DNA of 64,000 nucleotides from Diacronema lutheri (lineage: Eukaryota > Haptophyta > Pavlovophyceae > Pavlovales > Pavlovaceae): contig JAGTXO010000047.1 in the NCBI GenBank assembly GCA_019448385.1, forward strand, positions 186,001 to 250,000, in the 5' to 3' direction. Both the position numbers and the translations under genes were made by a program. Position 1 is the first letter of the stretch. Every line of letters begins with the position of its first letter. A model generated the notes under the pieces. The model had not been told where the DNA came from, did not search any database, and saw only the letters and a program-made list of their open reading frames with translations. Of the stretch, positions 7,123 to 49,100 are shown in pieces.

Positions 7123-8532
7123 AGCGGGCGGGCTCGGCGGCGACGGCGGCGGCGGCGACGACGTTGCCTTCCACTGCGCGGCGTGCTGCGCGGCGCGCGG
7201 CGTGAGCCGGCCCGTCCCGCTCGCGTCCGTCGACGAGCTGCCTCAGACCACGATGGGGGCAGCCATGGAGGCGGCTGTCGCACGCGCGCTCGCGACCGCC
7301 GGCGTCGACGCGCCGCCCGTCCGCGTGCGCGTCACGTCGGCGCAGCGCGAGAGCGCGTGCGCCAAGCAGCCAATGATTGAGCGCCAATGGTCGAGCGGCG
7401 AGCAGTACCCGTGCGCGCGCCGGCGCGGCGCAGCGCGCGCGCCGCCGTGCCGCCGCGGCGCCGCGCGCACGCGCCGCCGGCGCGCGCGCCGGCGGCGCGG
7501 CGGCGCGCGCGCTGCGCCGCGCTTGCGACTTTTGCGGCGAGCGTCCACGCGCATGCCCTCCACCCGGCCGCTCGCCTCCGCGCTCGCGCCCCGTCGCCGC
7601 TTCGTGCGCCGACTCTCCCCGCCCTTTCTTGCACACTGCCCCCCCCCCCCCCCCCCCCTTTCCCCTTTCCCCCTTTTTCCTTTCCCTTTTCTCTTGCGCT
7701 GCCCTGCGCATCGCTGCCCCCTCTCCCTCTTTCCCCTTTCGCCTTCCCCCTTCCCCCTCTCCTCTTCCCCCTTTCTCCTTTCCCCTTTCGCTTGCGCTGC
7801 CCTGCGCATCGCTGCCCCCTCTCCCTCTTTCCCCTGCCCCTCTCCCTCGTTCCCCTTCCCCCTTTCCCCTTTCCCCTTCCCCTCTCCCTTTCCCCCTTTC
7901 CCCTTTCTCTTGCGCTGCCCTGCGCATCGATGCGCGCACAGGTCGGAGTTCCCGTACGTCTCGCGCTGCGTCGTGGGTGTGCAGCAGCAGGCGGAGGCGG
8001 AGGTGCTCCTCTTCTGCATGTGCGCGCTGCTGAACCTTCCCGCCCCCCCCCCTCCTTCTTTTTCCCGATCCTATCCCCCCCCCCCCTACCCCCCCCCCCA
8101 CCACCCCTTCCTACCCCACCCCACCCCATCCCACACCACCGCATCCCATCTCCATCCCCATCCCCATCCCCATCCCCATCCTTATCTCAACCCACCGCAT
8201 CCTACGCATCCCACGCAACCTCACCCTCATCCCATCCCGCCGCCTAATTCACCCTCCCCCAATTGAATGTTGTGCACTTTGCACTCCGCTCTGCGCAGGT
8301 ACGTGCAGGAGTACGGCGCGGACTGCCCTGCGCCCAACACCAACCGGCTGTACATCTCCTACCTCGACTCCGTGCGCTACCTGCACGCGCAGCCGCCGGG
8401 GCAGCGCACGCTCGTCTACCACGCGATGCTTGTCGAGTGCGCCGCTGCTGCTGCTGCTAAGGGGGGGGGGGGGGGGGGGGGGGGGGGATACCACGCGATG
8501 CTTGTCGAGTGCGCCGCTGCTGCTGCTGCTAA

Positions 8533-8575
<43 letters not shown>

Positions 8576-8692
8576 TACCACGCGATGCTTGTCGAGTGCG
8601 CCGCTGCTGCTGCTGCTAAGGGGGGGGGGGGGGGGGGGGGGGGGGGGATACCACGCGATGCTTGTCGAGTGCGCCGCTGCTGCTGCTGCTAA

Positions 8693-8725
<33 letters not shown>

Positions 8726-9846
8726 TACCACGCGATGCTTGTCGAGTGCGCCGCTGCTGCTGCTGCTAAGGGGGGGGGGGGGGGGGGATACCACGCGATG
8801 CTTGTCGAGTGCGCCGCTGCTGCTGCTGCTAGGGGGGGGGGGGGGGGGGGGGATACCACGCGATGCTTGTCGAGTGCGCCGCTGCTGCTGCTGCTAAGAG
8901 GGGGGGGGGGGGGGGGGGGAAGGGGAATGGGGGAAAGGGGGGGAAGGGGGAAGGGGGTGAACAGGAAGGGGGGCAGGAAAAAAGCGCATGGATGGGACTT
9001 TTGTAAGTCGCTTCCCTTGGACTTTTGAAAAGTCCACGCCCATCCGATCCAACTGGAAGCAGCCCCGCCCCACCCCATTTTATACCACCTCATCCCACCC
9101 CCTTCCAGTTCTCTCAACCCATCATATCCCATCCCAACCCACCATATCCCATCCCACCATATCCCATCCCATCCCTCCTCTGCGCAGATACCTCCGCTGC
9201 GCGCGACTGCGCGGCTTCCAGGCGGTGCACGTGTGGGTCGAGCCGCCCAAGAACGGGCAGGAATACATCTTCCACTGCAGGCCCGCCGCTGACAGGCGAG
9301 CCATGAAACGCGAGGTGCGTCCCATACCCCGCGACCCGACGCAGCGGCCCAACGCAGCGGCGCGGCGCGCGGCGCGGCGTCAGGCGTGGCGTCAGGCGCG
9401 GCGTCAGGCGCGGCGTCAGGCGCGGCGCGTCCGGGCGTGTGGCGGCGCTGGTGATCCGCGTCCAAACCCATTTCCGTACTCCGATCCCGTCCGATCCCGT
9501 CGGACCCCTTCCGATCCCGTCCCGTCATCCGATCCCGCCTACCCGCGATCCCATCCCCTCGCGATCCCATCCCCTCGCGATCCCATCCCCTCGCGATCCC
9601 ATCCCCTCGCGATCCCATCCCCTCGCGATCCCATCCCCTCGCGATCCCATCCCCTCGCGATCCCACGCCGATCCCTCATCCGCGCGGGATCTGCGCAGGT
9701 GCTGCACGGCTGGTACGTCAAGATGCTGATGGCTGCCAAGGAGGCGGGCGTGGTGCTGCGATTTGGTGGCATGGCGGAGGAGTTTGCAACTATCACGTCC
9801 GGTGCGCGGCGGCTGGCCGGACAAAGGACGGGAATGGGAAATTTGG

Positions 9847-9880
<34 letters not shown>

Positions 9881-12824
9881 GCGGGAGCTTGCGCTGCGGG
9901 CGGCGGGGGCAGAGGGGCGCAGGTGCGGGACCCGTTCGCTGCGCGCGGTGCCTTCGCGCGCAGCACCGGCTCGGCAAAGGACGCGCTCGTACCCTCCGTC
10001 CGCCTCCGTCCGCCTCCGTCCGTCCCCTTCCCTCCTCCGTCCGCCCCTGCTCGCGCGCTCCGCGCCATCGCGTGGCCTCTGCCCCGCCCGGCCCCCGGCC
10101 CGCCGCGCCGTCCGCACGTCCGCGCGCCCATTTTTAAAAAAAAAAAAACAACACCCGCCCGCGCACGCCGTCTGCGCGCCACCCCCTTTTATCGCAGCCT
10201 CGCAAATTCCGATGTTTTCCGGTGACCAGTGGGAGGTCACAGTGCCGGACCTGGCCAAGCAGCAGCAGAGCTCGCGCCCGAGGCACGCGCCGAGCGGCGG
10301 CAGCGGCGGAGGCGGAGGCGGAGGCGGAGGCGGCGGTGGCGGCGGCGGCGCGGCCGTGACGGCGGTGGGCCTTTGCGCGCCAGGCGCCAGTGTCTGCTAC
10401 GCGGCATGCGCTGCAGACACTGGCGCGGCCGACGGCACGCTCGCCGCCGCTGGCGCGTGCGAGCGGACCGCCGCGCCCGCCGCCGCCGACGACGACGACA
10501 ATGGGAGCGGCGACGGCGTGGCCTCTGTGCAGGTCGACAACGCGGCGTTCGACGCGGCGGGCGCGCGCGCAGCCGCGCCCGCGCCGCCGTCGGCGATGCC
10601 GCCGCCAGCCGCCCCGTCCGCGCCGCGCCTATCGCTGTCCGCCGCCTGCTGCGGCGCCGCCGCCGCCGCCGCCGCCGCCGCAGCCGACGGCGTGGGCACG
10701 CCGCGCGCGGGTTGCGTCGGCTCGTGCACGCCGCGCGGCGCCCGCTTGGTCGGCGTGGAGATGTGCAAGGCGACGTCAAAGGACCTGGTCTCGCAGCTGC
10801 ACAAGGCGATGCGCAGGCGCGCGCTGCCCTGCGCTGCCCTGCCCTGCCCCGCCCTGCGCTGCCCTGCCCTGCCCTGCCCTGCCCTGCCCCGGCCTGCCCT
10901 GCCCTGCCCTGCCCCGCCCTGCGCTGCGCTGCCCTGCCCTGCCCTGCCCTGCCCCGGCCTGCCCTGCCCTGCCCTGCCCTGCCCCGGCCCTGCCCTGCCC
11001 TGCCCTGCCCTGCCCTGCCCTGCCCTGCCCTGCCCTGCTTTGCCCCACCCCGCCCCACCCCGCCCCGCTTTGCCCCACCCCGCCCCACCCTGCCCCACCC
11101 TGCCCTGCCCTGCCCCACCCCGCCCCAACCCGCCCCACCCCGCCCCGCTTTGCCCCGCCCCGCCCCACCCCGCCCCACTTTGCCCCGCCCTGCCCCACCC
11201 CGCCCCCACCCCGCCCCACCCTGCCCTGCCCTGCCCCACCCCGCCCCACCCCGCCCCACCCCGCCCCACCCTGCCCTGCCCTGCCCTGCCCTGCCCTGCC
11301 CCGCCCCACCCCGCCCCACCCCGCCCCGCCCCACCCTGCCCTGCCCTGCCCCGCCCCACCCCGCCCCACCCCGCCCCGCTTTGCCCCGCCCTGGTCTGGC
11401 GCTGCCCTGCGGCGTCTCGTCTTGAGCGCACGCTGCCCCATCTGAGCCAATCCTCCCTCGCCCATCTGACCCATTTTTCCCTCACCATCTGAGCCAACCC
11501 CATCCCACCCCATCTGATCCCATTTGATCCCATCCCAATCCCATCTCATTTCATCCCATCTCGTCCCGTCCCATCCCGTCCCATCCCGTCCCATCCCGTC
11601 CCATCCCGTCCCATCCCTCCGCAGGCTGCAGGGCCATTTCATCGTCGGCACGCTCGCGCCCCTCGCGCCGGGCGAGGCGCGCGCCGACTGCGCCGGGGAC
11701 GACGCGACGGTCCAATCATTGATTTGTCCGCTCATGCAGAGCCGCTCGCGCCTCCTCGCCTTCTGCCAGGCGCACTCGCTTCGCTTCTGTTCGCTCCGGT
11801 GAGCTCTTCCCCTTCCCTTCCCCTTCCCCGTCCCCGCTTTCGCCTTTTCCCGTCCCGTCCCGTCCCGTCCCGTCTTCGTCCTTTCCTTGCCCCCTGTGGC
11901 GAGACTGACCCCATCCCCGTCCCCGTCCCCGTCCCCTCGCCCCCGTCCCTGATTCGCTCCACGTCCCCATCCCCGTCCCCGACCCCGCTCCACGTCCCCG
12001 CCCCGACTCGCCTCACCGCAGCTACGCGCAATATTCAACGATGCGAATTTTGCACGAGCTGCTGCGCGGCTCAGCGCACGCCTCGCCCGCACCTGGCGGC
12101 CATGCTGACCTGCGCACGGATTATTGCACGCCCAGCTGCTCACACGGCAGGCGCGACGACGGCGCGCTCATGGTGGCGTGCGACGGCTGCGACAACTGGT
12201 TCCACGTGAGCTGCTGCGCCTTCTATCACCACCACACCTTCTTCCACACAATCCCCCCCCCCTCCCCCATTTCCCATCCCCCTCGGGTTCCACGTGAGCT
12301 GCTGCCCTTTCGAACACCACTCCCCCCCCCCCCCCCCCCCCCCCCCCCCTCAGCCCCTCCATTTCCCTTTCGCTTTCCCTTTCCCTTGCCTTCCTTCGCC
12401 CTCCCCAAGGGGGAAGCTCCTTTCCCAAAAAAGGCGCGCGTTGGCATGGCCGCGACACGTCCATCTGCGCCACCGGCGCTTTAATCACCATCGCCCCCAA
12501 TCCTGAGATTCCCCGCCCCTGCGATGGCCCGATCGCCAACGCGATAATCGCGCACGCACCTGTTCGCCCTCACCCTCGCCCTCGCCCTCACCCTCACCCT
12601 CACCCCCACCCTCGCCCTCACCCTCGCAGCCCGAGTGCGTCGGCCTCACTGGCGCCGAGAAAGCCGCGGCCGCGTACACGTGCCCGACGTGCAGCGTGGA
12701 CGGCGTTTTGGAAAGCGGCGCCGACGCCGTGCAGCCGGCCAGCAGCGCTCGCGCGGGAGCTGCGCGGGCTCAGACGGACGACATTGCTGGTGACGTCGAC
12801 ATGGCAGAGCCGGCTCTGCAATGA
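2104..12824 (+). CDS. CBP/p300-type histone acetyltransferase (KAT11 domain)
   Basis: Nuclear acetyl-CoA-dependent lysine acetyltransferase of the p300/CBP (plant HAC) family. Exons: 2104-2383, 2559-3454, 3901-6168, 6359-7410, 7942-8019, 8299-8436, 9188-9314, 9699-9801, 10198-10816, 11625-11798, 12022-12205, 12630-12824; 6,114 nt, 2,037 residues. Order: N-terminal helical segment; TAZ-like half-finger (HAATC, NCSACK) ending exon 2; long Gly/Ala-rich linker; Tudor/Agenet-like segment and Cys-rich motifs across exons 3-4; PHD-like finger (CDLCHRWAHWVC); acetyltransferase core; C-terminal PHD finger (CDGCDNWFHPECVGLT). Splicing restores family motifs: YPSEFPY, YVQEYGADCPAPN, YISYLDSVRYL, YHAMLVEYLR, YIFHCRP. 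The Trp of HVWVEPP and the Trp-Tyr of HGWYVKML match catalytic p300 residues. The ZZ and TAZ2 modules usual after the core are not seen; a PHD stands there. Donors are GTGCGC/T or GTGAGC, with one GC donor at 10817. Confidence 0.88.
8417..8898 (+). repeat. Seven tandem copies of exon 6 tail plus its 5' splice site, separated by G-runs
   Basis: Copies begin at 8417, 8489, 8576, 8649, 8726, 8789 and 8854. Each has the last 20 nt of exon 6 (TACCACGCGATGCTTGTCGA), then GTGCGCC, (CTG)n, CTAAG or close variant and a G-run of varied length. The first is the true exon end; the rest lie in the intron 8437-9187. Candidate donors are 8437, 8509, 8596, 8669, 8746, 8809 and 8874. Units are 63-87 bp, the differences being G-run length. 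Confidence 0.92.
9544..9660 (+). repeat. 16-bp minisatellite in intron 7 of the acetyltransferase gene
   Basis: Seven to eight copies of GATCCCATCCCCTCGC lie just upstream of the acceptor at 9697-9698. The pyrimidine-rich unit may serve as the polypyrimidine tract. Confidence 0.75.
10825..11400 (+). repeat. Pentanucleotide satellite (CCCTG / CCCCG / CCCCA)n in intron 9
   Basis: Nearly 600 bp of CCTGC-type pentamers grading into CCCCA and CCCCG pentamers fill most of intron 10817-11624. All frames stay open through it, which makes spurious long reading frames on both strands. The intron begins with a GC donor. Confidence 0.85.
12198..12305 (+). repeat. Duplicated exon 11 tail plus 5' splice site
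   Basis: The 20-mer GGTTCCACGTGAGCTGCTGC spans the exon 11/intron junction at 12198-12217 and recurs exactly at 12286-12305 inside the intron. The copies are 88 bp apart, so the second donor (12294) would shift frame. A long C-run follows the second copy. Confidence 0.85.
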
Positions 12825-19413: not shown

Positions 19414-22400
19414 ATGGCGGCGGACGGGTGGGTCATCGCCTGGGCGGCCCTCCGTTGGACGGGCGCGCTGGCGTACTACGCGCTTGAGCTGGCGCTACTG
19501 CTCGTGCTGCTCGTGTGGCTGCTCCGCACCTCCCTCCTCCCGGTCCTCGTTGCCGCCGCCTCGCCCGTCGACATCTCGATTGACTCGCTCGCGCTCGCCG
19601 TTCGGTGGCACGACGCGCCGCTCCGCCGGCTGCGCCGGCTCGACGCGCCCTTCGACACGCTCACCGTGCGGATCGGCGGGCTCATCGCATATTCGCCACG
19701 CGCACCGTCCGCGCCCGCGCCCGCGCCGACCGCCGCGCACGAGACCGCGGAGCTCGCCGCGCTCGCCGCGTGCGCGCGCGGCGGCGCCGCTGCGCGCGCG
19801 CCGCCGGCCGCACCGCCATCGCCGCCGGCCCCATCGGCGCGGCCGCGTGCGGGCTCGCTCGACGCGCTGCGCGCGCCGCGCGAGCCTCTCGCCTGCGTGC
19901 GTACCGTTCGCGTCGAGCTCCGGCGCGCATGCCCCCGGTTCTTCATCGCGTGCGTGCACGTCGAGGACGCGGACGTTCACTTTGTGGGCTACGACCGAAG
20001 GTGCGCAGCCCGGGAGGGGAGGGGAGTGGGCTACGACCGAAGGTGCGCAGCCCGGGAGGGGAGGGGAGTGGGCTACGACCGAAGGTGCGCAGCCCGGGAG
20101 GGGAGGAGAGTGGGCTACGACCGAAGGTGCGCAGCCCGGGAGGGGAGGGGAGTGGGCTACGACCGAAGGTGCGCAGCCCGGGAGGGGAGGGGAGTGGGCT
20201 ACGACCGAAGGTGCGCAGCCCGGGAGGGGAGGGGAGTGGGCTACGACCGAAGGTGCGCAGCCCGGGAGGGGAGGGGAGTGGGCTACGACCGAAGGTGCGC
20301 AGCCCGGGAGGGGAGGAGAGTGGGCTACGACCGAAGGTGCGCAGCCCGGGAGGGGAGGGGAGTGGGCTACGACCGAAGGTGCGCAGCCCGGGAGGGGAGG
20401 GGAGTGGGCTACGACCGAAGGTGCGCAGCCCGGGTGGGGAGGGGAGTGGGCTACGACCGAAGGTGCGCAGCCCGGGAGGGGAGGGGAGTGGGCTACGACC
20501 GAAGGTGCGCAGCCCGGGAGGGGAGGGGAGTGGGCTACGACCGAAGGTGCGCAGCCCGGGAGGGGAGGGGAGTGGGCTACGACCGAAGGTGCGCAGCCCG
20601 GGAGGGGAGGGGAGTGGGCTACGACCGAAGGTGCGCAGCCCGGGAGGGGAGGGGAGTGGGCTACGACCGAAGGTGCGCAGCCCGGGAGGGGAGGGGAGTG
20701 GGCTACGACCGAAGGTGCGCAGCCCGGGAGGGGAGGGGAGTGGGCTACGACCGAAGGTGCGCAGCCCGGGAGGGGAGGGGAGTGGGCTACGACCGAAGGT
20801 GCGCAGCCCGGGAGGGGAGGGGAGTGGGCTACGACCGAAGGTGCGCAGCCCGGGAGGGGAGGGGAGTGGGCTACGACCGAAGGTGCGCAGCCCGGGAGGG
20901 GAGGAGAGTGGGCTACGACCGAAGGTGCGCAGCCCGGGAGGGGAGGGGAGTGGGCTACGACCGAAGGTGCGCAGCCCGGGAGGGGAGGGGAGTGGGCTAC
21001 GACCGAAGGTGCGCAGCCCGGGTGGGGAGGGGAGTGGGCTACGACCGAAGGTGCGCAGCCCGGGAGGGGAGGGGAGTGGGCTACGACCGAAGGTGCGCAG
21101 CCCGGGAGGGGAGGGGAGTGGGCTACGACCGAAGGTGCGCAGCCCGGGAGGGGAGGGGAGTGGGCTACGACCGAAGGTGCGCAGCCCGGGAGGGGAGGGG
21201 AGTGGGCTACGACCGAAGGTGCGCAGCCCGGGAGGGGAGGGGAGTGGGCTACGACCGAAGGTGCGCAGCCCGGGAGGGGAGGGGAGTGGGCTACGACCGA
21301 AGGTGCGCAGCCCGGGAGGGGAGGGGAGTGGGCTACGACCGAAGGTGCGCAGCCCGGGAGGGGAGGGGAGTGGGCTACGACCGAAGGTGCGCAGCCCGGG
21401 AGGGGAGGGGAGTGGGCTACGACCGAAGGTGCGCAGCCCGGGAGGGGAGGGGAGTGGGCTACGACCGAAGGTGCGCAGCCCGGGAGGGGAGGGGAGTGGG
21501 CTACGACCGAAGGTGCGCAGCCCGGGAGGGGAGGGGAGTGGGCTACGACCGAAGGTGCGCAGCCCGGGAGGGGAGGGGAGTGGGCTACGACCGAAGGTGC
21601 GCAGCCCGGGAGGGGAGGGGAGTGGGCTACGACCGAAGGTGCGCAGCCCGGGAGGGGAGGGGAGTGGGCTACGACCGAAGGTGCGCAGCCCGGGAGGGGA
21701 GGAGAGGGGTTGGGGGGGGTTGCGACGCAGCTTGGGTGGTGGGCACGAAGGGTTGGGCAGAGGCAAAAAGTGCAGCCTGGCCTGGCCCTCTGCTTTTGAC
21801 TGAATGGCGGGAGAAGGGAGGAGCGTATGGCAGGCTGGGACGCGACGGGCATGAAAATGGCGGCAGATCGCCCCGCGCCCCCTTCTCGAGGGTTTTCTCA
21901 ATCCAGCCGCGTCGCGTCGCATGACCGTGCGTTGCCGCAGGTTCCGCGACACCAACGTGAAGCGCCTTGCCGACGCGCTCGCCGCTGCCGACGCAGCCGC
22001 ACGTGCCGCGCGCGCAGCCGCGCGCGCAGCCGCCGCTGAGCGCGCGGCATCCGCCTCAGCATGGCGGCCGACGCGCTGGTGGAGGCGGTCACCATCGCCG
22101 CCGTCGAACGTGCGCCCGCCACTGTCAGCTTCATCGCCACATCGAGTACCGCCTTTGGTACCGTCGTCGCCGCCGTCGCCGAGGCCGCTGCTGCAACCGA
22201 CAACATCGCCGCAGCCACCGCCACCATTGCCGCCCGTCGTGGTCGAGGCGATCGTGTTGCGTCGGCTGTCCGTGCACATCGAGCGTAACGTCTGCGGAAA
22301 GGCGGGGGGCGCGCGCGCGGTGCTGCCGCCAATCACGATGGTCGAAGAGCGCCTCGAGACGGCCAAGCTCGCGGCAGCGGGCGCGGCGGCCGGCGGCGGC

Positions 22401-24327
22401 GGTGGGGGCGGGAATGGTGGCGGTGGCGGTGGCGGTGGCGACGCCCTTTCACTGGGGCTGCTCGTCTGGCTCAATTCGCTCGTCTTCCGTACCCTCGCAT
22501 CGACGTGTGTGCGCCCTCGCCACGCTCGGCGCGCGCGCGTGCGCCGAGTTCCCGCGCGCGCCCGTTTCCCGTTTGCTCCCTTTCCCCCTTTTGCTCCCTT
22601 TCCCCCTTTTGCTCCCTTCCCCCTTTTGCTCCCTTTTTCCCCTTTGCTCCCTTTCCCCCCTTTGCTCCCTTTCCCCATTTGCTCCCTTTCCCCCGTTTGC
22701 TCCCTTTCCCCCTTTGCTCCCTTTCCCCCGTTTGCTCCCTTTCCCCCGTTTGCTCCCTTCCCCCCTTTGCTCCCTTCCCCCCTGCCGCTGACACCGCGCG
22801 CCATGCCGCCCGCCCCGCCGCACACTCCGCCACCCGCTCCGCCGTGCGCTCCGCCGCGTGGCACAGCTCAATTGACGCGGTGCGCACGTCCATCGGCTAC
22901 GCGACGCAGCAGGCGGGCGCCGCGCTCGGCCGCACGATCGACCTCGTCGACAGCGCCAACCGCGCGCTCGCCCTTCCGTCGCTGCCCGGCGGCTCGGTGG
23001 TCGCCGGCGCGACGGACGCGGCGCGGCTCGTCATCGAAGGCGCGCTCGAATCTTCCGCTGCCATCGTCGACGGCGCAGCGGAGGGTGCGGACGCACGCGT
23101 TCGCGTCCGCGTCCGCGTCCGCGCACGTGCCCTCCGTATGGTGCCCGCGCCGCGCGAGCGCGCGCCGCTCGCTGACGCGCGCGCGCGCGCGCGCGCGCGC
23201 GCCGCGCAGGCGCCAAGCACGTCGCGCTCTCGTTGTCGTCAGGCTCGGCGAGCGGCGTGCTCCGCGGTGTACGCCGTGGAGCCGTCGAGCTGCGCCGCGG
23301 CATCGACGAGGGCTCGCGCTCGTTTGGCGAAGCAGCGGCGGGCGGCGCCGCGTTACTCGCGGCAAGCGTTGACCGTTCAGTTGGACACATGGGACCTACT
23401 GGGTTGGCCGTGAGCGGCATGGCGGGCGGCGCGCAGCTCGTCGTCACGGGCCTCTCAGACTGCACCTTCGCCGTCATCGGCGGCGTCGCGACCGGCTCGG
23501 CGCTCGCAGCCGGCGGCGTGGTCGGCGGCGCGTCGGTTGGCGCGTGCGGCCTCGTGGCGGGCGACGCTGCGGCGGTCGCATGCGGCGGCGCACTGGTGGT
23601 TGGTGGCGTGCTGCGCGGCACGGGCGCGGCGGTTGGTGGCGTTCTCGACGGCGTTGGCATTGCACACGCGGGCGTCGAACGCGGCGTGGGCTCTGTCGTC
23701 GCCGGTTTGGACGCCGCGCGCGCCGAGCGCCGCGAGGCCACCGCCGTGCGCTTGCGCTCGCCCAGCGCGGCGGGCGAGGCGGGTGGGGCGGAGGCGACGC
23801 GCCCGCCGCCGGACGCGCGCGCACGTGCGGAAGCGAGCGCGCCGCGCGTCGCCGGCTCGCGTGGCGAGCTCGCGCGTGCGATCCCGCCCGCCGACGGCGC
23901 TCCGCGCGGCGCGCTGGGCGCGCTCATCCGCAGCTTGCGCTTCGAGCGCGGCGTGCCCGCGCTCCTCCTGCGTCGGCGTGCCGCGCGACGCGCGCTTGTC
24001 GCTTCCGGCGGTGCGGGCGCGGGCGCGGGCGTGACGCGTGACGCCGACGGGCGGGGCGGCGCCGTCGCAGGCGCGTCGCGCGTGGGCGGCGCGCCGGCCG
24101 AGGGGGAATGCGAGGTCCGCACGATGGCTTCCGATGCAGCGTTTCGAATTGCGACGGCTGGTGGCGAGTGCGCCGCGTCGCCTTCCGCGGGCACGGCGGG
24201 CGGCTGCGGGTCGGCCGCGGCGCCTGCGGCACCGGGCTGCATGCCAACCGACGCGCGCGCGAGGACGCGCGACAAGATCGGCGAGGCGTGGCGCTTCCGC
24301 GCGCACGAGCTTCGCGGGCCCGTGTGA
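19414..24327 (+). CDS. Membrane-anchored protein, possibly lipid-transfer-like; unknown function
   Basis: Four exons: 19414-20000, 21941-22504, 22867-23084, 23210-24327; 2,487 nt, 828 residues. Exon 1 encodes one strong N-terminal membrane segment (LELALLLVLLVWLLRTSLLPVL), then strands such as VDISIDSLALAVRWHD and LTVRIGGLIAYSP. A membrane anchor followed at once by beta-rich sequence is the layout of bridge-like lipid-transfer proteins, but the similarity is weak and I do not assign a family. Exon 2 has an Ala-rich helix, a Pro-rich spacer and VVVEAIVLRRLSVHIERN. Exon 4 is dominated by Gly/Ala/Val-rich sequence (LAVSGMAGGAQLVVTG) and ends in an Arg-rich tail. Exon 1 ends two bases into an Arg codon completed by exon 2, so phase is sound. 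The exon 2/3 junction is least certain. Intron 1 consists mainly of a 41-copy array. Confidence 0.6.
19984..21705 (+). repeat. 42-bp minisatellite, 41 copies, each an exon tail plus a 5' splice site
   Basis: Unit starts fall exactly every 42 bp from 19984 to 21664. Each unit is the last 17 nt of exon 1 (GTGGGCTACGACCGAAG), the donor GTGCGC, AGCCCGGG and two or three G-runs. Copy 1 is the real exon/intron boundary (exon ends 20000); the other 40 are intronic. Because 42 is 14 codons, every copied donor is in phase and read-through adds GYDRRCAAREGRGV per unit without a stop. Few variants exist: GGAGAG for GGGGAG in copies 3, 8 and 22, CGGGTGGGG in copies 11 and 25. Confidence 0.95.
22560..22785 (+). 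repeat. Pyrimidine-rich repeat in intron 2 of the same gene
   Basis: About a dozen copies of a 16-18-bp unit, CCCTTTCCCCCGTTTGCT and variants, lie within intron 22505-22866. It is a ready polypyrimidine tract. Confidence 0.75.
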
Positions 24328-37189: not shown

Positions 37190-40100
37190 ATGCCCCACGC
37201 CAGAGCGCAAGCTGGCGCTCGCGCGTTCGCGCTATCGACCGCCTACGCGTTCTTCAAGGTGGCGCTCATCGCGATGCCCGTCGGCACTCTCGCCGTGGCG
37301 CCCGTCGGCGCTGTAGCCATGGGGCGCGCGGAGGCGGCAAGCGCCGCGCTGATTGCGGCCGTTCAGTCGGTGCCCGCGGCGGAGACTTTCCCGCGCCGGC
37401 AGCTGACGGCGGTGCCGCTCTCGGCGATTGAGTCCTTCGACCCCGCTTCGACCGTCTGCCCAAGAATCGGCCCGCTCGAGCTGCGCGTCACAGTCGAGGG
37501 CGGCAACTTCAGCAACGGCAACGTGAGCTTCTTCTTCTTCCCGCCGATCGGCCCCGACGTATGGAATGTGACGCAGCTGACGCCGATGCACAACATGTCT
37601 GGGTGCGCCTCTAACGGCTGCGTGACCGTCAGGAACACGCCGCCGCCCCCGCCCGTCGACTGCCCCGACCAGGTCCTCGTGAACGAATACCTCACGCCCC
37701 CGACGGACGCGGGCGACGGCTGCCTCCTCTTCCTCTTCGACGTGCCGACGCATGTCCTGTCGGGGATGCCGCCGGGCTGCCTCTTTGAGATCAGCTTTAC
37801 CGTCTTTGAGCACCCCGTGGACGGCGCGTACATCTCCGGCCTGTCCGGCGGCTGGTCGGATTCGCGCGTCTTCCAATGCTCCTACTCGCCATCAAGAGGC
37901 GTCTCGTGCAGCGGGCCGCTCGCGCCGACCGTCCCGCCGCTGCCCTACATGATCTTCAACCGAATCCCATGCGCGCTCTCGCCGAGCCCACCGCCAAGCC
38001 CGCCGCCGCCAAGCCCGCCGCCAAGCCCGCCGCCGAGCCCGCCGCCGCCGAGCCCGCCGCCGAGCCCGCCACCGCCGAGCCCGCCGCCGAGCCCGCCGCC
38101 GCCGAGCCCGCCGCCGAGCCCGCCGCCGCCGAGCCCGCCGCCGAGCCCGCCGCCGCCGAGCCCGCCGCCAAGCCCGCCGCCGCCGCTCGCGCCACCGCCG
38201 GGCGGCGGCCTGTTGCCCGACGGCGGGGGCGGGGGCGACCCGCTGCCGCCCGCCCCACCGCCGAGCCCGCCGCCGCCATTGTGCAGCGCCGTTGGTGAGC
38301 TCAAGCTGACGATCAACGTGCGCGGCAACATCCGTGGCGCCGGCCAGCACATCAACGTGTCCTACTTCCCGCCGATCGGGCCCGACCTGTGGGACTGGGC
38401 GAACCCGGGCCCCGTGCCCGGTCTGCAGCACTGCGCCAACGGCACTTTCTCCCAGTCGGCCACGTGTGGCTCAAGCTTCGATGCAAACTTCGAGCAGACA
38501 CTGAACACGATCGAGTGCCCGCTCATGCCCACAGTCAACGAGTACCTCACGCCGCCCACGTCCGAGGGCCTCTCGTGCCTCGCCTTCCTCTTCACCGTGC
38601 CGAGCGGCGTGATCCTCACAGAGACCTCCTCGTGCCCACTCGAAGTCACCGCCACCGTCACCGAAATCAATGGGACCTACAGCTCGGCAATCACGGCCGG
38701 CTCGCGGAGCGGCGACGTCACGTTCATGTGCTCGAGCGTGACGGCCACGTGCACCGTGCGCGTCATCTTCGCCACCATCCCGTGCGACCGCTCGCCGCCG
38801 CCGCCCAGCCCGCCGCCTCCCAGCCCGCCGCCGAGCCCGCCGCCCAGCCCGCCTCCCAGCCCGCCGCCTCCGCCGCTCTGCCCCTTCGTCGGTGACCTTG
38901 CGCTCACCATCTTCGTGCGAGGCGATTTGAACAACCCGCTGCCCGCCGGCGTGGGCAAGTACGCCGACGTGTTCGCCTACGTGCCCGCCGGCCTCGACTA
39001 CGAGAGCGGCTTCAGCAATGACACGGCGCTCCTCATCGACAAGTGCGCGGACGCGCCGCAGAATGTGTCGCGCTGCTCGGTCGTGCCCGAGCCGGCGTAC
39101 TCGTGCCCGGGCGCGCCGCTCGTCAACGACTTCTTGCTGCCGCCGGGCGTGGACGGGCTGACGGCGCTCAAGCTCAAGGTGTGCATCAGCGACGAGGTCG
39201 AGCTGCGCACGTGCGACCCGTTCAACAGCTGCGCCTTCTCCGTGCGCGCGCGCCTCGCCAAGGTGGCGGGCACGGGTGGCGCCGGACTCCCAGGCTACGT
39301 GCGGAACGCCCCTAGCAACCTCGCGAGCGTCTTCCAGATCGCTGAGGATCCCGGCTCGTGCACGACGGCGGGCCCGCCGCCGAGCCCAACACCGATGCCG
39401 CGGTGCACCGACATTGAGATTCCGCAAATTCTCTGCGTCCCTGCACCACCAAGCCCGCCGCCAACCCCGCCGCCGAGCCCGCCGCCGAGCCCGCCGCCAA
39501 GCCCGCCGCCGCCGAGCCCGTCGCCGCCTAGCCCTCCGCCCAGCCCACCGCCGAGCCCGCCGCCAAGCCCGCCGCCACCCAGCCCGCCGCCACCGAGCCC
39601 GCCGCCGAGCCCGCCGCCGAGCCCGCCGCCGAGCCCGCCGCCGAGCCCGCCGCCGAGCCCGCCGCCGCCGAGCCCACCGCCACCGAGCCCGCCACCGAGC
39701 CCGCCACCGAGCCCGCCACCGAGCCCGCCGCCAAGCCCGCCGCCGCCAAGTTCGCCGCCACCAAGGCCCCCGCCGAGCCCGCCGCCGAGCCCGCCGCCAA
39801 GCCCGCCGCCGCCCAGCCCGCCGCCGCCGAGCCCGCCGCCCAGCCCGCCGCCGAGCCCGCCGCCGCCCAGCCCGCCGCCACCGCGCCCGCCGCCAAGCCC
39901 GCCACCGAGCCCGCCACCCAGCCCGCCGCCACCAAGCCCACCGCCGCCGAACCCGCCGCCTAGCCCGCCGCCCAGCCCGCCGCCGCCCAGCCCGCCGCCG
40001 CCCCGCCCGCCGCCGAGCCCGCCACCGAGCCCGCCGCCCAGCCCGCCGCCAAGCCCGCCGCCGAGCCCGCCGCCGAGCCCGCCGCCAAGCCCGCCGCCAA

Positions 40101-43100
40101 GCCCGCCGCCGAGCCCGTCGCCAAGCCCGCCGCCAAGCCCGCCACCGAGCCCGCCACCGAGCCCGCCACCGAGCCCGCCACCGAGCCCGCCGCCGAGCCC
40201 GCCACCGAGCCCGCCGCCGAGCCCGCCGCCTAGCCCGCCACCGAGCCCGCCGCCAAGCCCGCCGCCAAGCCCGCCGCCCAGCCCGCCGCCGCCCAGCCCG
40301 CCGCCGCCGAGCCCGCCGCCGAGCCCGCCGCCAAGCCCGCCGCCAAGCCCGCCGCCGAGCCCGCCGCCGAGCCCGCCGCCAAGCCCGCCGCCAAGCCCGC
40401 CGCCGAGCCCGTCGCCAAGCCCGCCGCCAAGCCCGCCACCGAGCCCGCCACCGAGCCCGCCACCGAGCCCGCCACCGAGCCCGCCACCGAGCCCGCCACC
40501 GAGCCCGCCGCCAAGCCCGCCGCCAAGCCCGCCGCCCAGCCCGCCGCCGCCCAGCCCGCCGCCGCCCAGCCCACCGCCGAGCCCGCCGCCGAGCCCGCCG
40601 CCGAGCCCGCCGCCGAGCCCGCCGCCGAGCCCGCCGCCGAGCCCGCCACCGAGCCCGCCACCGAGCCCGCCACCAAGCCCGCCACCGAGCCCGCCGCCAA
40701 GCCCGCCGCCAAGCCCGCCGCCCAGCCCGCCGCCGCCCAGCCCGCCGCCGCCCAGCCCACCGCCGAGCCCGCCGCCGAGCCCGCCGCCGAGCCCGCCGCC
40801 GAGCCCGCCGCCGAGCCCGCCGCCGAGCCCGCCGCCGAGCCCGCCACCAAGCCCGCCGCCGAGCCCGCCGCCGAGCCCGCCGCCGAGCCCGCCGCCGAGC
40901 CCGCCGCCGCCGAGCCCGCCGCCGCCCAGCCCACCGCCGAGCCCGCCGCCGAGCCCGCCGCCGAGCCCGCCGCCGAGCCCGCCGCCGAGCCCGCCACCAA
41001 GCCCGCCGCCGAGCCCGCCACCAAGCCCGCCACCGAGCCCGCCACCGAGCCCGCCACCGAGCCCGCCGCCAAGCCCGCCGCCGCCAAGCCCGCCGCCGCC
41101 AAGCCCGCCGCCGAGCCCGCCGCCGAGCCCGCCACCGAGCCCGCCACCGAGCCCGCCACCGAGCCCGCCACCGAGCCCGCCGCCAAGCCCGCCGCCAAGC
41201 CCGCCGCCAAGCCCGCCACCAAGCCCGCCACCAAGCCCGCCGCCCAGCCCGCCGCCGCCCAGCCCGCCGCCGCCAAGCCCGCCGCCGAGCCCGCCGCCGA
41301 GCCCGCCGCCAAGCCCGCCGCCAAGCCCGCCGCCAAGCCCGCCGCCAAGCCCGCCGCCAAGGCCGCCGCCGAGCCCGCCGCCAAGCCCGCCGCCAAGCCC
41401 GCCGCCAAGCCCGCCGCCAAGCCCGCCGCCAAGCCCGCCGCCAAGCTTGCCGCCAAGCCCGCCACCAAGCCCGCCACCAAGCCCCCCGCCGAGCCCCCCG
41501 CCGAGCCCCCCGCCGAGCCCGCCGCCGCCAAGCCCGCCGCCGCCGAGCCCGCCGCCAAGCCCGCCGCCAAGCCCGCCACCGAGCCCGCCGCCAAGCCCGC
41601 CGCCAAGCCCGCCGCCAAGCCCGCCGCCGAGCCCGCCGCCGAGCCCGCCGCCAAGCCCGCCACCGAGCCCGCCACCGAGCCCGCCACCGAGCCCGCCACC
41701 GAGCCCGCCACCGAGCCCGCCACCGAGCCCGCCACCGAGCCCGCCGCCAAGCCCGCTGCCAAGCCCGCCGCCCAGCCCGCCGCCGCCCAGCCCGCCGCCG
41801 CCGAGCCCGCCGCCGAGCCCGCCGCCGAGCCCGCCGCCGAGCCCGCCGCCGAGCCCGCCGCCGAGCCCGCCACCAAGCCCGCCGCCCAGCCCGCCGCCGA
41901 GCCCGCCGCCGAGCCCGCCGCCGAGCCCGCCACCGAGCCCGCCACCGAGCCCGCCGCCAAGCCCGCCGCCAAGCCCGCCGCCAAGCCCGCCACCGAGCCC
42001 GCCGCCAAGCCCGCCGCCAAGCCCGCCGCCAAGCCCGCCGCCAAGCCCGCCGCCAAGCCCGCCGCCGCCCAGCCCGCCGCCGCCGAGCCCGCCGCCTAGC
42101 CCGCCACCGAGCCCGCCACCGAGCCCGCCACCGAGCCCGCCACCGAGCCCGCCACCGAGCCCGCCGCCAAGCCCGCCGCCAAGCCCGCCGCCGAGCCCGC
42201 CGCCGAGCCCGCCGCCGAGCCCGCCGCCGAGCCCGCCACCAAGCCCGCCACCAAGCCCGCCACCAAGCCCCCCGCCGAGCCCGCCGCCGCCGAGCCCGCC
42301 GCCGCCGAGCCCGCCGCCAAGCCCGCCGCCAAGCCCGCCACCGAGCCCGCCACCGAGCCCGCCGCCAAGCCCGCCGCCAAGCCCGCCGCCAAGCCCGCCG
42401 CCAAGCCCGCCGCCAAGCCCGCCGCCAAGCCCGCCGCCGCCCAGCCCGCCGCCGCCCAGCCCACCGCCTAGCCCGCCGCCGAGCCCGCCGCCAAGCCCGC
42501 CGCCAAGCCCGCCGCCAAGCCCGCCGCCAAGCCCGCCGCCAAGCCCGCCGCCGAGCCCGCCGCCGAGCCCGCCGCCGAGCCCGCCGCCGAGCCCGCCGCC
42601 GAGCCCGCCGCCGAGCCCGCCACCGAGCCCGCCACCGAGCCCGCCGCCGAGCCCGCCGCCGAGCCCGCCGCCGAGCCCGCCACCGAGCCCGCCGCCGAGC
42701 CCGCCGCCAAGCCCGCCGCCGGGCCCGCCGCCGAGCCCGCCGCCGAGCCCGCCGCCGAGCCCGCCACCAAGCCCGCCACCAAGCCCGCCACCAAGCCCCC
42801 CGCCGAGCCCGCCGCCGCCGAGCCCGCCGCCGCCGAGCCCGCCGCCAAGCCCGCCGCCAAGCCCGCCACCGAGCCCGCCACCGAGCCCGCCGCCAAGCCC
42901 GCCGCCAAGCCCGCCGCCAAGCCCGCCGCCAAGCCCGCCGCCAAGCCCGCCGCCGCCCAGCCCGCCGCCGCCCAGCCCACCGCCTAGCCCGCCGCCGAGC
43001 CCGCCGCCAAGCCCGCCGCCAAGCCCGCCGCCAAGCCCGCCGCCAAGCCCGCCGCCAAGCCCGCCGCCGAGCCCGCCGCCGAGCCCGCCGCCGAGCCCGC

Positions 43101-46100
43101 CGCCGAGCCCGCCGCCGAGCCCGCCACCGAGCCCGCCACCGAGCCCGCCACCGAGCCCGCCGCCGAGCCCGCCACCGAGCCCGCCGCCGAGCCCGCCACC
43201 GAGCCCGCCGCCGAGCCCGCCGCCAAGCCCGCCACCGAGCCCGCCACCGAGCCCGCCACCGAGCCCGCCACCGAGCCCGCCGCCAAGCCCGCCGCCAAGC
43301 CCGCCGCCGAGCCCGCCGCCAAGCCCGCCGCCAAGCCCGCCGCCGCCCAGCCCGCCGCCGCCCAGCCCGCCGCCCAGCCCGCCGCCGAGCCCGCCGCCGA
43401 GCCCGCCGCCGAGCCCGCCGCCGAGCCCGCCGCCGAGCCCGCCACCAAGCCCGCCGCCAAGCCCGCCGCCAAGCCCGCCGCCAAGCCCGCCGCCAAGCCC
43501 GCCGCCAAGCCCGCCGCCGCCAAGCCCCCCACCGCCGAGCCCACCGCCAAGCCCGCCGCCAAGCCCGCCGCCCAGTCCGCCACCGAGCCCGCCGCCAAGC
43601 CCGCCGCCGAGCCCGCCGCCGAGCCCGCCGCCAAGCCCGCCGCCGCCCAGCCCGCCGCCGCCGAGCCCGCCGCCGAGCCCGCCACCGAGCCCGCCACCGA
43701 GCCCGCCACCGAGCCCGCCACCGAGCCCGCCGCCGAGCCCGCCGCCAAGCCCGCCGCCAAGCCCGCCGCCAAGCCCGCCGCCAAGCCCGCCGCCAAGCCC
43801 GCCGCCGAGCCCGCCGCCAAGCCCGCCGCCAAGCCCGCCGCCAAGCCCGCCGCCAAGCCCGCCGCCGCCAAGCTCCCCACCGCCGAGCCCACCGCCAAGC
43901 CCGCCGCCAAGCCCGCCGCCCAGTCCGCCACCGAGCCCGCCGCCGAGCCCGCCGCCAAGCCCGCCGCCAAGCCCGCCGCCAAGCCCGCCGCCGCCAAGCC
44001 CCCCACCGCCGAGCCCACCGCCAAGCCCGCCGCCAAGCCCGCCGCCCAGTCCGCCACCGAGCCCGCCGCCAAGCCCGCCGCCGAGCCCGCCGCCAAGCCC
44101 GCCGCCAAGCCCGCCGCCGAGCCCGCCGCCGAGCCCGCCGCCGAGCCCGCCGCCAAGCCCGCCGCCGCCCAGCCCGCCGCCGCCGAGCCCGCCGCCGAGC
44201 CCGCCGCCAAGCCCGCCGCCAAGCCCGCCGCCAAGCCCGCCGCCAAGTCCGCCGCCAAGCCCGCCGCCGCCCAGCCCGCCGCCGCCCAGCCCGCCGCCCA
44301 GCCCGCCGCCAAGCCCGCCGCCAAGCCCGCCGCCAAGCCCGCCGCCAAGCCCGCCTCCAAGCCCTCCTCCAAGTCCTCCACCTCCGAGCCCCCCGCCGCC
44401 CAGCCCGCCACCGAGCCCGCCGCCAAGCCCGCCGCCGAGCCCGCCGCCAAGCCCGCCGCCAAGCCCGCCGCCAAGCCCGCCGCCAAGTCCGCCGCCAAGC
44501 CCGCCGCCGCCCAGCCCGCCGCCGCCGAGCCCGCCGCCAAGCCCGCCGCCAAGCCCGCCGCCAAGCCCGCCGCCAAGCCCGCCGCCAAGCCCGCCGCCAA
44601 GCCCGCCACCGAGATCGCCACCGAGATCGCCGCCAAGCCCGCCGCCAAGCCCGCCGCCAAGCCCGCCGCCGCCGAGCCCGCCACCACCGAGCCCGCCGCC
44701 CAGCCCGCCGCCCAGTCCGCCGCCCAGCCCGCCGCCCAGCCCACCGCCCAGCCCACCGCCGCCCAGCCCGCCGCCACCGAGCCCGCCGCCAAGCCCGCCG
44801 CCGCCGAGCCCGCCACCACCGAGCCCGCCGCCCAGCCCGCCGCCCAGCCCGCCGCCCAGCCCGCCGCCCAGCCCGCCGCCCAGCCCGCCGCCGCCCAGCC
44901 CGCCGCCGCCAAGCCCGCCGCCAAGCCCGCCGCCAAGCCCGCCGCCAAGCCCGCCGCCGCCGAGCCCGCCTCCACCGAGCCTGCCGCCAAGCCCGCCGCC
45001 AAGCCCGCCGCCCAGCCCGCCGCCGCCCAGCCCGCCGCCGCCCAGCCCACCGCCGAGCCCGCCGCCGAGCCCGCCGCCGAGCTTGCCGCCGAGCCCGCCG
45101 CCGAGCCCGCCGCCGAGCCCGCCGCCAAGCCCGCCGCCAAGCCCGCCGCCGAGCCCGCCGCCGAGCCCGCCGCCGAGCCCGCCGCCGAGCCCGCCGCCGC
45201 CGAGCCCGCCGCCGCCCAGCCCACCGCCGAGCCCGCCGCCGAGCCCGCCGCCGAGCCCGCCGCCGAGCCCGCCACCGAGCCCGCCACCGGGCCCGCCACC
45301 GAGCCCGCCACCAAGCCCGCCGCCGAGCCCGCCACCGAGCCCGCCGCCAAGCCCGCCGCCGCCAAGCCCGCCGCCGCCAAGCCCGCCGCCGAGCCCGCCA
45401 CCGAGCCCGCCACCGAGCCCGCCACCGAGCCCGCCACCGAGCCCGCCACCGAGCCCGCCACCGAGCCCGCCACCGAGCCCGCCGCCAAGCCCGCCGCCAA
45501 GCCCGCCACCAAGCCCGCCGCCAAGCCCGCCGCCAAGCCCGCCGCCGCCCAGCCCGCCGCCGCCCAGCCCACCGCCGAGCCCGCCGCCGAGCCCGCCGCC
45601 GAGCCCGCCGCCGAGCCCGCCGCCGAGCCCGCCGCCAAGCCCGCCGCCAAGCCCGCCGCCGCCGAGTCCCCCACCGCCGAGCCCGCCGCCAAGCCCGCCG
45701 CCGAGCCCGCCGCCAAGCCCGCCGCCAAGCCCGCCGCCAAGCCCGCCGCCAAGCCCGCCGCCGCCCAGCCCGCCGCCGCCCAGCCCGCCGCCGCCGAGCC
45801 CGCCGCCGAGCCCGCCGCCAAGCCCGCCGCCAAGCCCGCCGCCAAGCCCGCCGCCAAGCCCGCCGCCAAGCGTGCCGCCGAGCCCGCCGCCAAGCCCGCC
45901 GCCAAGCCCGCCGCCAAGCCCGCCGCCAAGCCCGCCGCCAAGCCCGCCGCCAAGCCCGCCACCAAGCCCGCCACCAAGCCCGCCACCAAGCCCGCCACCA
46001 AGCCCCCCGCCGAGCCCCCCGCCGAGCCCGCCGCCGCCGAGTCCCCCACCGCCGAGCCCGCCGCCAAGCCCGCCGCCGAGCCCGCCGCCAAGCCCGCCGC

Positions 46101-49100
46101 CAAGCCCGCCGCCAAGCCCGCCGCCAAGCCCGCCGCCAAGCCCGCCGCCGCCCAGCCCGCCGCCGCCAAGCCCGCCGCCGAGCCCGCCGCCAAGCCCGCC
46201 GCCGCCCAGCCCGCCGCCGCCGAGCCCGCCGCCAAGCCCGCCGCCGAGCCCGCCGCCAAGCCCGCCGCCAAGCCCGCCGCCAAGCCCGCCGCCAAGTCCG
46301 CCGCCAAGCCCGCCGCCGCCCAGCCCGCCGCCGCCGAGCCCGCCGCCAAGCCCGCCGCCAAGCCCGCCGCCAAGCCCGCCGCCAAGCCCGCCGCCGAGCC
46401 CGCCGCCGAGCCCGCCGCCGAGCCCGCCACCGAGCCCGCCGCCAAGCCCGCCGCCAAGCCCGCCGCCGCCGAGCCCGCCATCACCGAGCCCGCCGCCCAG
46501 CCCGCCGCCCAGTCCGCCGCCCAGCCCGCCGCCCAGCCCACCGCCCAGCCCACCGCCGCCCAGCCCGCCGCCACCGAGCCCGCCGCCAAGCCCGCCGCCG
46601 CCGAGCCCGCCACCACCGAGCCCGCCGCCCAGCCCGCCGCCCAGCCCGCCGCCCAGCCCGCCGCCCAGCCCGCCGCCCAGCCCGCCGCCGCCCAGCCCGC
46701 CGCCGCCAAGCCCGCCGCCAAGCCCGCCGCCAAGCCCGCCGCCAAGCCCGCCGCCGCCGAGCCCGCCTCCACCGAGCCTGCCGCCAAGCCCGCCGCCAAG
46801 CCCGCCGCCCAGCCCGCCGCCGCCCAGCCCGCCGCCGCCCAGCCCACCGCCGAGCCCGCCGCCGAGCCCGCCGCCGAGCCCGCCGCCGAGCCCGCCGCCG
46901 AGCCCGCCGCCGAGCCCGCCGCCAAGCCCGCCGCCAAGCCCGCCGCCGAGCCCGCCGCCGAGCCCGCCGCCGAGCCCGCCGCCGAGCCCGCCGCCGCCCA
47001 GCCCGCCGCCGCCCAGCCCACCGCCGAGCCCGCCGCCGAGCCCGCCGCCGAGCCCGCCGCCGAGCCCGCCACCGAGCCCGCCACCGGGCCCGCCACCGAG
47101 CCCGCCACCAAGCCCGCCGCCGAGCCCGCCACCGAGCCCGCCACCGAGCCCGCCGCCAAGCCCGCCGCCGCCAAGCCCGCCGCCGCCAAGCCCGCCGCCG
47201 AGCCCGCCACCGAGCCCGCCACCGAGCCCGCCACCGAGCCCGCCACCGAGCCCGCCACCGAGCCCGCCACCGAGCCCGCCGCCAAGCCCGCCGCCAAGCC
47301 CGCCACCAAGCCCGCCGCCAAGCCCGCCGCCAAGCCCGCCGCCGCCCAGCCCGCCGCCGCCCAGCCCACCGCCGAGCCCGCCGCCGAGCCCGCCGCCGAG
47401 CCCGCCGCCGAGCCCGCCGCCGAGCCCGCCGCCAAGCCCGCCGCCAAGCCCGCCGCCGCCGAGTCCCCCACCGCCGAGCCCGCCGCCAAGCCCGCCGCCG
47501 AGCCCGCCGCCAAGCCCGCCGCCAAGCCCGCCGCCAAGCCCGCCGCCAAGCCCGCCGCCGCCCAGCCCGCCGCCGCCGAGCCCGCCGCCGAGCCCGCCGC
47601 CAAGCTTGCCGCCAAGCCCGCCGCCAAGCCCGCCGCCAAGCCCGCCGCCAAGCCCGCCGCCGAGCCCGCCGCCAAGCCCGCCGCCAAGCCCGCCGCCAAG
47701 CCCGCCGCCAAGCCCGCCGCCAAGCCCGCCGCCAAGCCCGCCACCAAGCCCGCCACCAAGCCCGCCACCAAGCCCGCCACCAAGCCCCCCGCCGAGCCCC
47801 CCGCCGAGCCCGCCGCCGCCGAGTCCCCCACCGCCGAGCCCGCCGCCAAGCCCGCCGCCGAGCCCGCCGCCAAGCCCGCCGCCAAGCCCGCCGCCAAGCC
47901 CGCCGCCAAGCCCGCCGCCGCCCAGCCCGCCGCCGCCAAGCCCGCCGCCGAGCCCGCCGCCAAGCCCGCCGCCGCCCAGCCCGCCGCCGCCGAGCCCGCC
48001 GCCAAGCCCGCCGCCGAGCCCGCCGCCAAGCCCGCCGCCAAGCCCGCCGCCAAGCCCGCCGCCAAGTCCGCCGCCAAGCCCGCCGCCGCCCAGCCCGCCG
48101 CCGCCGAGCCCGCCGCCAAGCCCGCCGCCAAGCCCGCCGCCAAGCCCGCCGCCAAGCCCGCCGCCGAGCCCGCCGCCGAGCCCGCCGCCGAGCCCGCCAC
48201 CGAGCCCGCCGCCAAGCCCGCCGCCAAGCCCGCCGCCAAGCCCGCCGCCGCCGAGCCCGCCACCACCGAGCCCGCCGCCCAGCCCGCCGCCCAGCCCGCC
48301 GCCCAGCCCGCCGCCCAGCCCACCGCCCAGCCCACCGCCGCCCAGCCCGCCGCCACCGAGCCCGCCGCCAAGCCCGCCGCCGCCGAGCCCGCCACCACCG
48401 AGCCCGCCGCCCAGCCCGCCGCCCAGCCCGCCGCCCAGCCCGCCGCCCAGCCCGCCGCCCAGCCCGCCGCCGCCCAGCCCGCCGCCGCCAAGCCCGCCGC
48501 CAAGCCCGCCGCCAAGCCCGCCGCCAAGCCCGCCGCCGCCGAGCCCGCCTCCACCGAGCCTGCCACCAAGCCCGCCGCCAAGCCCGCCGCCCAGCCCGCC
48601 GCCCAGCCCGCCGCCGCCGCCTGTTTGCCCATTTGTCGGCGATGTCGAGCTGACCGTGCAGGTGGGCGGCGACCTGGACGACCTGGACGAATGGGTTGAC
48701 ATCTTTCCTTTTCAGCCCGACTTTGGGTCGCCCGGCGATTGGCTTGCTGAGCCCGAGACGTCACCAATCGTCGTGGAGTGCGCGCGGGTGGGCGGGCCAT
48801 CTTGCGCCTCGCAAGCGCGTATCACGTGCGCACTCAAGCCGATCGTGAGCGCGTACCTGCAGCCGCCCGACGCACTCAGCGGCAACTCGTCGCTCAAGTT
48901 TTTGGCGTGCACAACTGCGGCATCCGAGCTGCGCACGTGCAGTGGCGTCAACGGCTTTTATGATGGTTGTGAGTTCAGCTACGTGATGAGCGTCACGACG
49001 GTACCTGGAACGGGAGGGAACGGATTGCCGCCGTGGCAAAGCACCGTCGGACCATTGCAGGTGTCCGAGCCGCTCGCCTTCTCGCCGGCAAGTTGCGACG

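Follow-up and report, generated by a model that had tools for sequence, protein, structure and literature searches.

Splice-junction minisatellites in the alga Diacronema lutheri, including 41 tandem copies of an exon end with its putative 5′ splice site

The stretch analysed here, referred to throughout as the window, comprises 64,000 nucleotides of the Diacronema lutheri genome (C97:186001-250000) and was picked for a 41-copy tandem array, which lies in the predicted first intron of a four-exon gene. For strain NIVA-4/92, a passage of the genome report gives 43,502,671 bases in 103 contigs with 73.25% GC (PMC8379373); the assembly searched here holds 43,492,796 bases in 103 contigs. On the same strand, the window also contains a segment of a p300/CBP-type histone acetyltransferase gene with a second array of the same anatomy, which the preliminary description of this DNA had missed. 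Two further repeats are prominent: about 117 copies of a 5-bp unit (CTGCC) at 10824-11410, and a 9.2-kb array of about 766 copies of a 12-bp unit at 39449-48615, which possibly codes for a very long low-complexity protein, either rich in Pro, Ala, and Lys or, on the other strand, rich in Gly and Ala.

Table 1 Features of the two array-bearing genes in the window
Feature	Position	Strand	Basis
Exon of p300/CBP-type histone acetyltransferase gene, donor TTGTCGA|GTGCGC	8299..8436	+	Pfam HAT_KAT11 4e-20; CREB-binding protein alignment
Seven-copy tandem array, each unit with the final 20 nt of the exon, GTGCGC donor, and G-run	8417..8919	+	TRF, copy comparison
Next exon of p300/CBP-type gene	9188..9314	+	Pfam, CREB-binding protein alignment
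Exon 1, probable N-terminal membrane helix	19414..20000	+	Open frame, codon score, P0001 alignment
41 × 42-bp array	19984..21705	+	TRF, genome-wide probe, copy-by-copy comparison
Intron 1	20001..21940	+	Junction ungapped in P0001 and two paralogues
Exon 2	21941..22504	+	tblastn of P0001, gene model
Pyrimidine-rich 18-bp minisatellite inside intron 2, touching no splice site	22568..22782	+	TRF, gene model
Exon 3	22867..23084	+	Gene model, tblastn of P0001
Exon 4 to stop codon	23210..24326	+	Gene model, tblastn of P0001

The 42-bp unit is repeated head to tail, and TRF calls the array at 19984-21706 with a period of 42, 41.0 copies, and 99% matches. Every unit consists of 17 nt of exon end followed by the GTGCGC 5′ splice site and then G-runs. 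Thirty-five of the 41 copies are identical; four have a G>A change at unit position 40 and two an A>T change at position 32, both changes lying within the G-rich part, while the exon end and donor, at positions 1-31, are invariant in all copies. An exact 27-base probe finds 41 matches in the 43.5-Mb genome, all of them within this array. Each unit together with its neighbor forms G-quadruplex-type motifs, of which the array contains 37 without overlap; we claim no function for them. Compared with shuffled sequences, the unit shows no advantage in hairpin formation (z = −0.47 and 0.25 for one unit, −1.24 and −0.49 for three units). Variants fall at copies 8 and 11 and again at 22 and 25, as though a block of 14 units had been duplicated; by a rough manual estimate such a coincidence has about a 1-in-5 chance, and we made no use of it.

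Tandem repeats are prone to assembly error, which raises the question of whether the array or its copy number, read from one assembly, is an artefact. At 1.7 kb, however, the array is short relative to long reads, and the point variants in six copies are scattered along it. The PacBio reads, at a coverage given as approximately ×315 in a passage of the genome report (PMC8379373), also argue against an artefact, which we regard as extremely improbable.

The final 17 nt of exon 1 lie within the first copy, which places the putative donor at 20000|20001 and the acceptor at 21940|21941, so that intron 1 measures 1940 nt with the first donor and 260 nt with the last. Joining the four exons yields a protein of 828 residues. 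A metagenomic protein of 682 residues, P0001 (E = 2.8e-89), matches all four exons by tblastn and is the sole relative among 7988 candidates scored. Two paralogues in the same genome, on C27 (787 residues) and C4 (566 residues), their start positions picked by hand, are single uninterrupted frames across all three intron positions. No gap occurs at the first junction in P0001 (HFIAYDRRFRDTNVQRL) or in the paralogues (FVSYDHRFADTNVRRL and FVAYDRSFKDTNVQRL). Homology to these three proteins, each uninterrupted through the junction, supports a predicted exon end at position 20000; among donors 1, 2, 3, and 41, which were checked, only donor 1 gives a protein of the relatives’ form. The preliminary description had proposed that an exon end, together with its donor, was amplified in tandem inside an intron, with all copies in one frame; TRF, the copy-by-copy comparison, and homology confirm the array itself and, as far as homology reaches, its reading as a series of putative splice sites.

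In the searches made, this gene family was found only in D. lutheri and in the one metagenomic protein, and the paralogues (L060 and L061) are intronless. A profile search that scored 7994 candidates found no further relative, and the viral contigs contained none. The array-bearing gene has no match in a Pfam search and only weak matches by sequence in the PDB (best E = 0.27); the predicted structure of P0001 is unusable, with a mean pLDDT of 48.8. In the product of the array-bearing gene, an N-terminal hydrophobic stretch suggests a possible membrane anchor. The array-bearing gene groups with P0001 (98/96) in a small tree of four sequences, and on the simplest reading the introns would be gains in the array-bearing gene. 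One feature counts against the gene model, namely that the codon score within exon 2 (about 22020-22200, windows at about 22021-22141) is better in another frame; the exon 2 frame was kept because P0001 matches it on both sides. Across the two gene models of the window, six of seven donors start with GTGCG and the seventh with GTGTG.

Translation can run from the ATG at 19414 through the entire array until it meets a TGA (21922-21924) that lies 16 nt short of the intron end. The preliminary description had drawn attention to this stop-free read-through, and the frame is indeed open, yet its openness is uninformative: five of the six frames of the unit are open, as is the read-through frame in 78% of 5000 composition-shuffled units, and the frame argument therefore carries little weight. 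A period divisible by three, such as 42, has a 1-in-3 chance. The open frame, together with the short 260-nt intron left by the last donor, would also fit an array that is itself exon, encoding a protein with about 41 repeats and an intron only at the array’s end or absent altogether. Stop-free frames are expected by chance, however, the array is absent from all three relatives, and the codon score, positive in exon 1 up to the array, drops to about −15 per 120 bases within it (a score trained on 3821 codons of the window and often similar on both strands). An exonic array is quite unlikely on this evidence.

The second array lies within the p300/CBP-type gene, where its seven copies are spaced by 72, 87, 73, 77, 63, and 65 bp and the G-run varies in length. 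Splicing of exons 7941-8019, 8299-8436, 9188-9314, and 9699-9801 gives a p300/CBP-type acetyltransferase segment that matches HAT_KAT11 (4e-20) and CREB-binding protein (1.5e-30), the latter in an alignment that runs ungapped across the array-bearing junction. The conserved protein results from donor 1. Splicing at donor 2 or donor 3 would add 24 or 53 in-frame residues, respectively, to the acetyltransferase core; donor 4 gives a frameshift, and donors 5-7 run into a stop. Because all six downstream donors insert residues, shift the frame, or meet a stop, an intact acetyltransferase core needs donor 1.

These outcomes bear on the possibility that several of the 41 donors are used to make a functional series of proteins differing in steps of 14 residues (VGYDRRCAAREGRG). 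The donor and the 42-nt period are kept in all copies, and the four donors checked all give open in-frame junctions; a passage of PMC4526556 reports that two downstream repeat units serve as donors in human IFI6. Recent homogenisation explains the lack of mutations equally well, however, and an insert would interrupt a stretch (YDRRFRDTN) that the relatives conserve. Since four of the six downstream donors of the p300/CBP-type gene lead to a frameshift or a stop, such protein series are not a shared property of these arrays. We consider the proposal unlikely.

Splice-junction arrays recur in other genes of the genome, at both donors and acceptors. Within C97:250001-300000, Pfam matches to Glyco_transf_20 and Trehalose_PPase fall on two same-strand exons, from whose order we infer a single trehalose-phosphate-synthase/phosphatase-like gene. 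A 34-bp unit in this gene (13.6 copies by TRF) forms an array that begins 2 nt before a donor (C97:261957), with GTGCGGC kept in 14 copies and the full GGGTGGGTGCGGC in 11; the same gene has two 86-bp copies of an acceptor that include 47 nt of exon (C97:256736). Both junctions were placed by reading of the frame. A carboxypeptidase-like gene on C33 carries eight copies of a polypyrimidine tract, acceptor, and the first 26 nt of an exon, at 530-1033 of L051 (C33:592600-594400). Peptidase_S10 matches its downstream exon, and the PDB alignment stops short of the junction. Pyrimidine-rich minisatellites (on the coding strand) that almost reach an acceptor occur at 9115-9175 of the window and at 784-890 of the reverse complement of L045 (C28).

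In the window, with 39-50 kb excluded, 13.1% of the sequence lies in tandem arrays with a period of at least 11; the share is 12.7% for C97:250-300k, 4.2% for C9:500-550k, and about 10% for the sampled sequence overall. With arrays this dense, some overlap with splice junctions is expected, and we state the recurrence with no claim of enrichment over chance. Our survey covered the 139 arrays of these three stretches (58, 55, and 26, respectively), and its filter flagged five donor-type and six acceptor-type rows. Three donor-type cases (8417, 19984, and C97:261957) and one acceptor-type case (C97:256736) were accepted; none was accepted from the 26 arrays in the 50 kb of C9. We interpret the array at C9 24243, which was flagged as both donor-type and acceptor-type, as a duplication of coding sequence at a C-terminus; the 19984 row among the acceptor types is the 41-copy array itself seen in antisense. 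The rows at C9 49761, window 49262, and C97_250k 9351 and 40812 (the last three acceptor-type) stand outside this division into accepted and rejected cases. Misses are likely because the filter’s codon score rests on the same 3821 codons and is often similar on both strands.

Pattern searches extended the survey to the genome. Three occurrences of AGGTGCG with gaps of 10-40 were found at 77 places, versus 20 for the reversed-pattern control, and correspond to 13 distinct arrays; eight of the 12 others were read (C23, C82, C93, and C101:101833 were left out). The AGGTGAG pattern gave 44 matches, versus 36 for its control, and eight distinct arrays, of which four were read. By the rough codon score, the arrays on C74, C6, and C28 and at C101:146056 lie in opposite-strand genes, and those on C9, C19, and C36 and at C47:196967 look like coding repeats. 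Among the AGGTGCG and AGGTGAG arrays read (C86, C43, C54, and C47:46334 being unassigned), none was judged to be a second sense-strand donor array. A GAGTGCG pattern with gaps of 46-76 gave 99 matches, versus 225 for its control; it recovered the 8417 array and pointed to the C33 carboxypeptidase gene, a case that says nothing about frequency given the larger number of control matches. An array on C30 from the same search was judged to be antisense.

Minisatellites are abundant in the introns of this genome, and in the introns read here they are G-rich toward the 5′ end and C/T-rich toward the 3′ end. We favor, with a probability of about 0.75, the reading that the 41-copy array is a minisatellite that grew across the exon–intron junction and was tolerated with the exon-proximal site in use. 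Slippage or unequal exchange would take in the last exon bases together with the donor. The extra copies would then sit downstream of the real donor and become intron, provided that the spliceosome stays with the exon-proximal site; growth would for this reason be close to neutral, and a young intron could lengthen to about 2 kb. Acceptor arrays would be the mirror image. We infer that mainly the first donor is used, and since all 41 are identical in sequence, such a preference would have to stem from position or from the upstream exon. If splicing favors short introns, the last donor, with its 260-nt intron, would be preferred instead and would add 560 residues.

The array could also have made the intron in the first place if an exonic AGGT segment had been duplicated in tandem, as in the Rogers/Hellsten model. 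The intron is absent from the two paralogues and the one relative and occupies an AAG|GTT proto-splice site, both of which agree with this model, yet the copies that it requires do not appear by eye when the intron start (GTGCGCAGCC) is compared with the flanking exon (GTTCCGCGAC) or the intron end (GTTGCCGCAG) with CTACGACCGAAG. The array fits amplification after the intron already existed, and its origin as the source of the intron is very unlikely. Introner elements were also considered and set aside: the 3′ part of the intron (21706-21945) has one match in the genome, itself, and the unit occurs only at this array, in a search that would miss old, diverged copies.

Engineered constructs are the usual means of studying how one of several identical 5′ splice sites is chosen. 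The gene described here offers a natural test of such choice, with 41 identical putative donors at equal spacing and all in frame. The p300/CBP-type gene adds seven copies, for which four of six wrong choices break the protein, and the acceptor arrays provide the mirror image. These arrays also suggest one possible way for recently gained introns to grow. A broader proposal, which we regard as rather doubtful, is that recurrent tandem amplification of donor and acceptor junctions in this genome is a standing route by which new introns lengthen, that position lets the spliceosome choose reliably among tens of identical donors, and that leaky choice in the 41-copy gene would give proteins graded in 14-residue steps.

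The human gene IFI6 (G1P3, 6-16) has a minisatellite that reportedly consists of about 26 copies of a 12-bp unit. This minisatellite gives multiple splice donors (Turri et al. 1995, as described in a passage of PMC4526556 and cited also in PMC2572611). In human segmentally duplicated genes, internal tandem repeats at exon–intron boundaries alter splicing, with units of 30 bp and four repeats on average and with transcript evidence (passages of PMC2812944). The preliminary description did not know tandem amplification of an exon–intron boundary on this scale as a described class, yet the idea that the class is undescribed does not survive these two precedents in print (PMC4526556, PMC2812944). 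Tandem-duplication intron gain, as outlined in part of PMC4974935, includes the 24-bp AGGT units of fission yeast, vertebrate ATP2A1, and potato RdRp, where the duplicated piece spans an intron–exon boundary. Among the matches listed in a literature search of titles and abstract beginnings, with few subscription journals, none reports such arrays in Diacronema or another haptophyte.

As in IFI6 (PMC4526556, in part), tandem repeats supply several splice donors: the array overlaps an exon end and holds a 5′ splice site in each unit, as it also does in a second gene. Unlike IFI6, the host is an alga, the 42-bp unit is present 41 times with 17 nt of exon in each, and similar arrays occur in other genes. 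With the human boundary repeats (PMC2812944, in part), the D. lutheri arrays share a minisatellite unit that spans the exon–intron boundary, placed by homology for 19984 and 8417 and by reading for the others; they differ in reaching 41 copies, in extending to acceptors, and in being known here from DNA sequence. Tandem-duplication intron gain is similar in that copies hold splice signals, the site is AAG|GTT, and relatives lack the intron, and dissimilar in that here the intron ends are no copies of the flanking exon and the array copies lie inside an existing intron. The kind of array is known; what looks new is how many copies there are and that such arrays recur at both ends of introns within a single genome.
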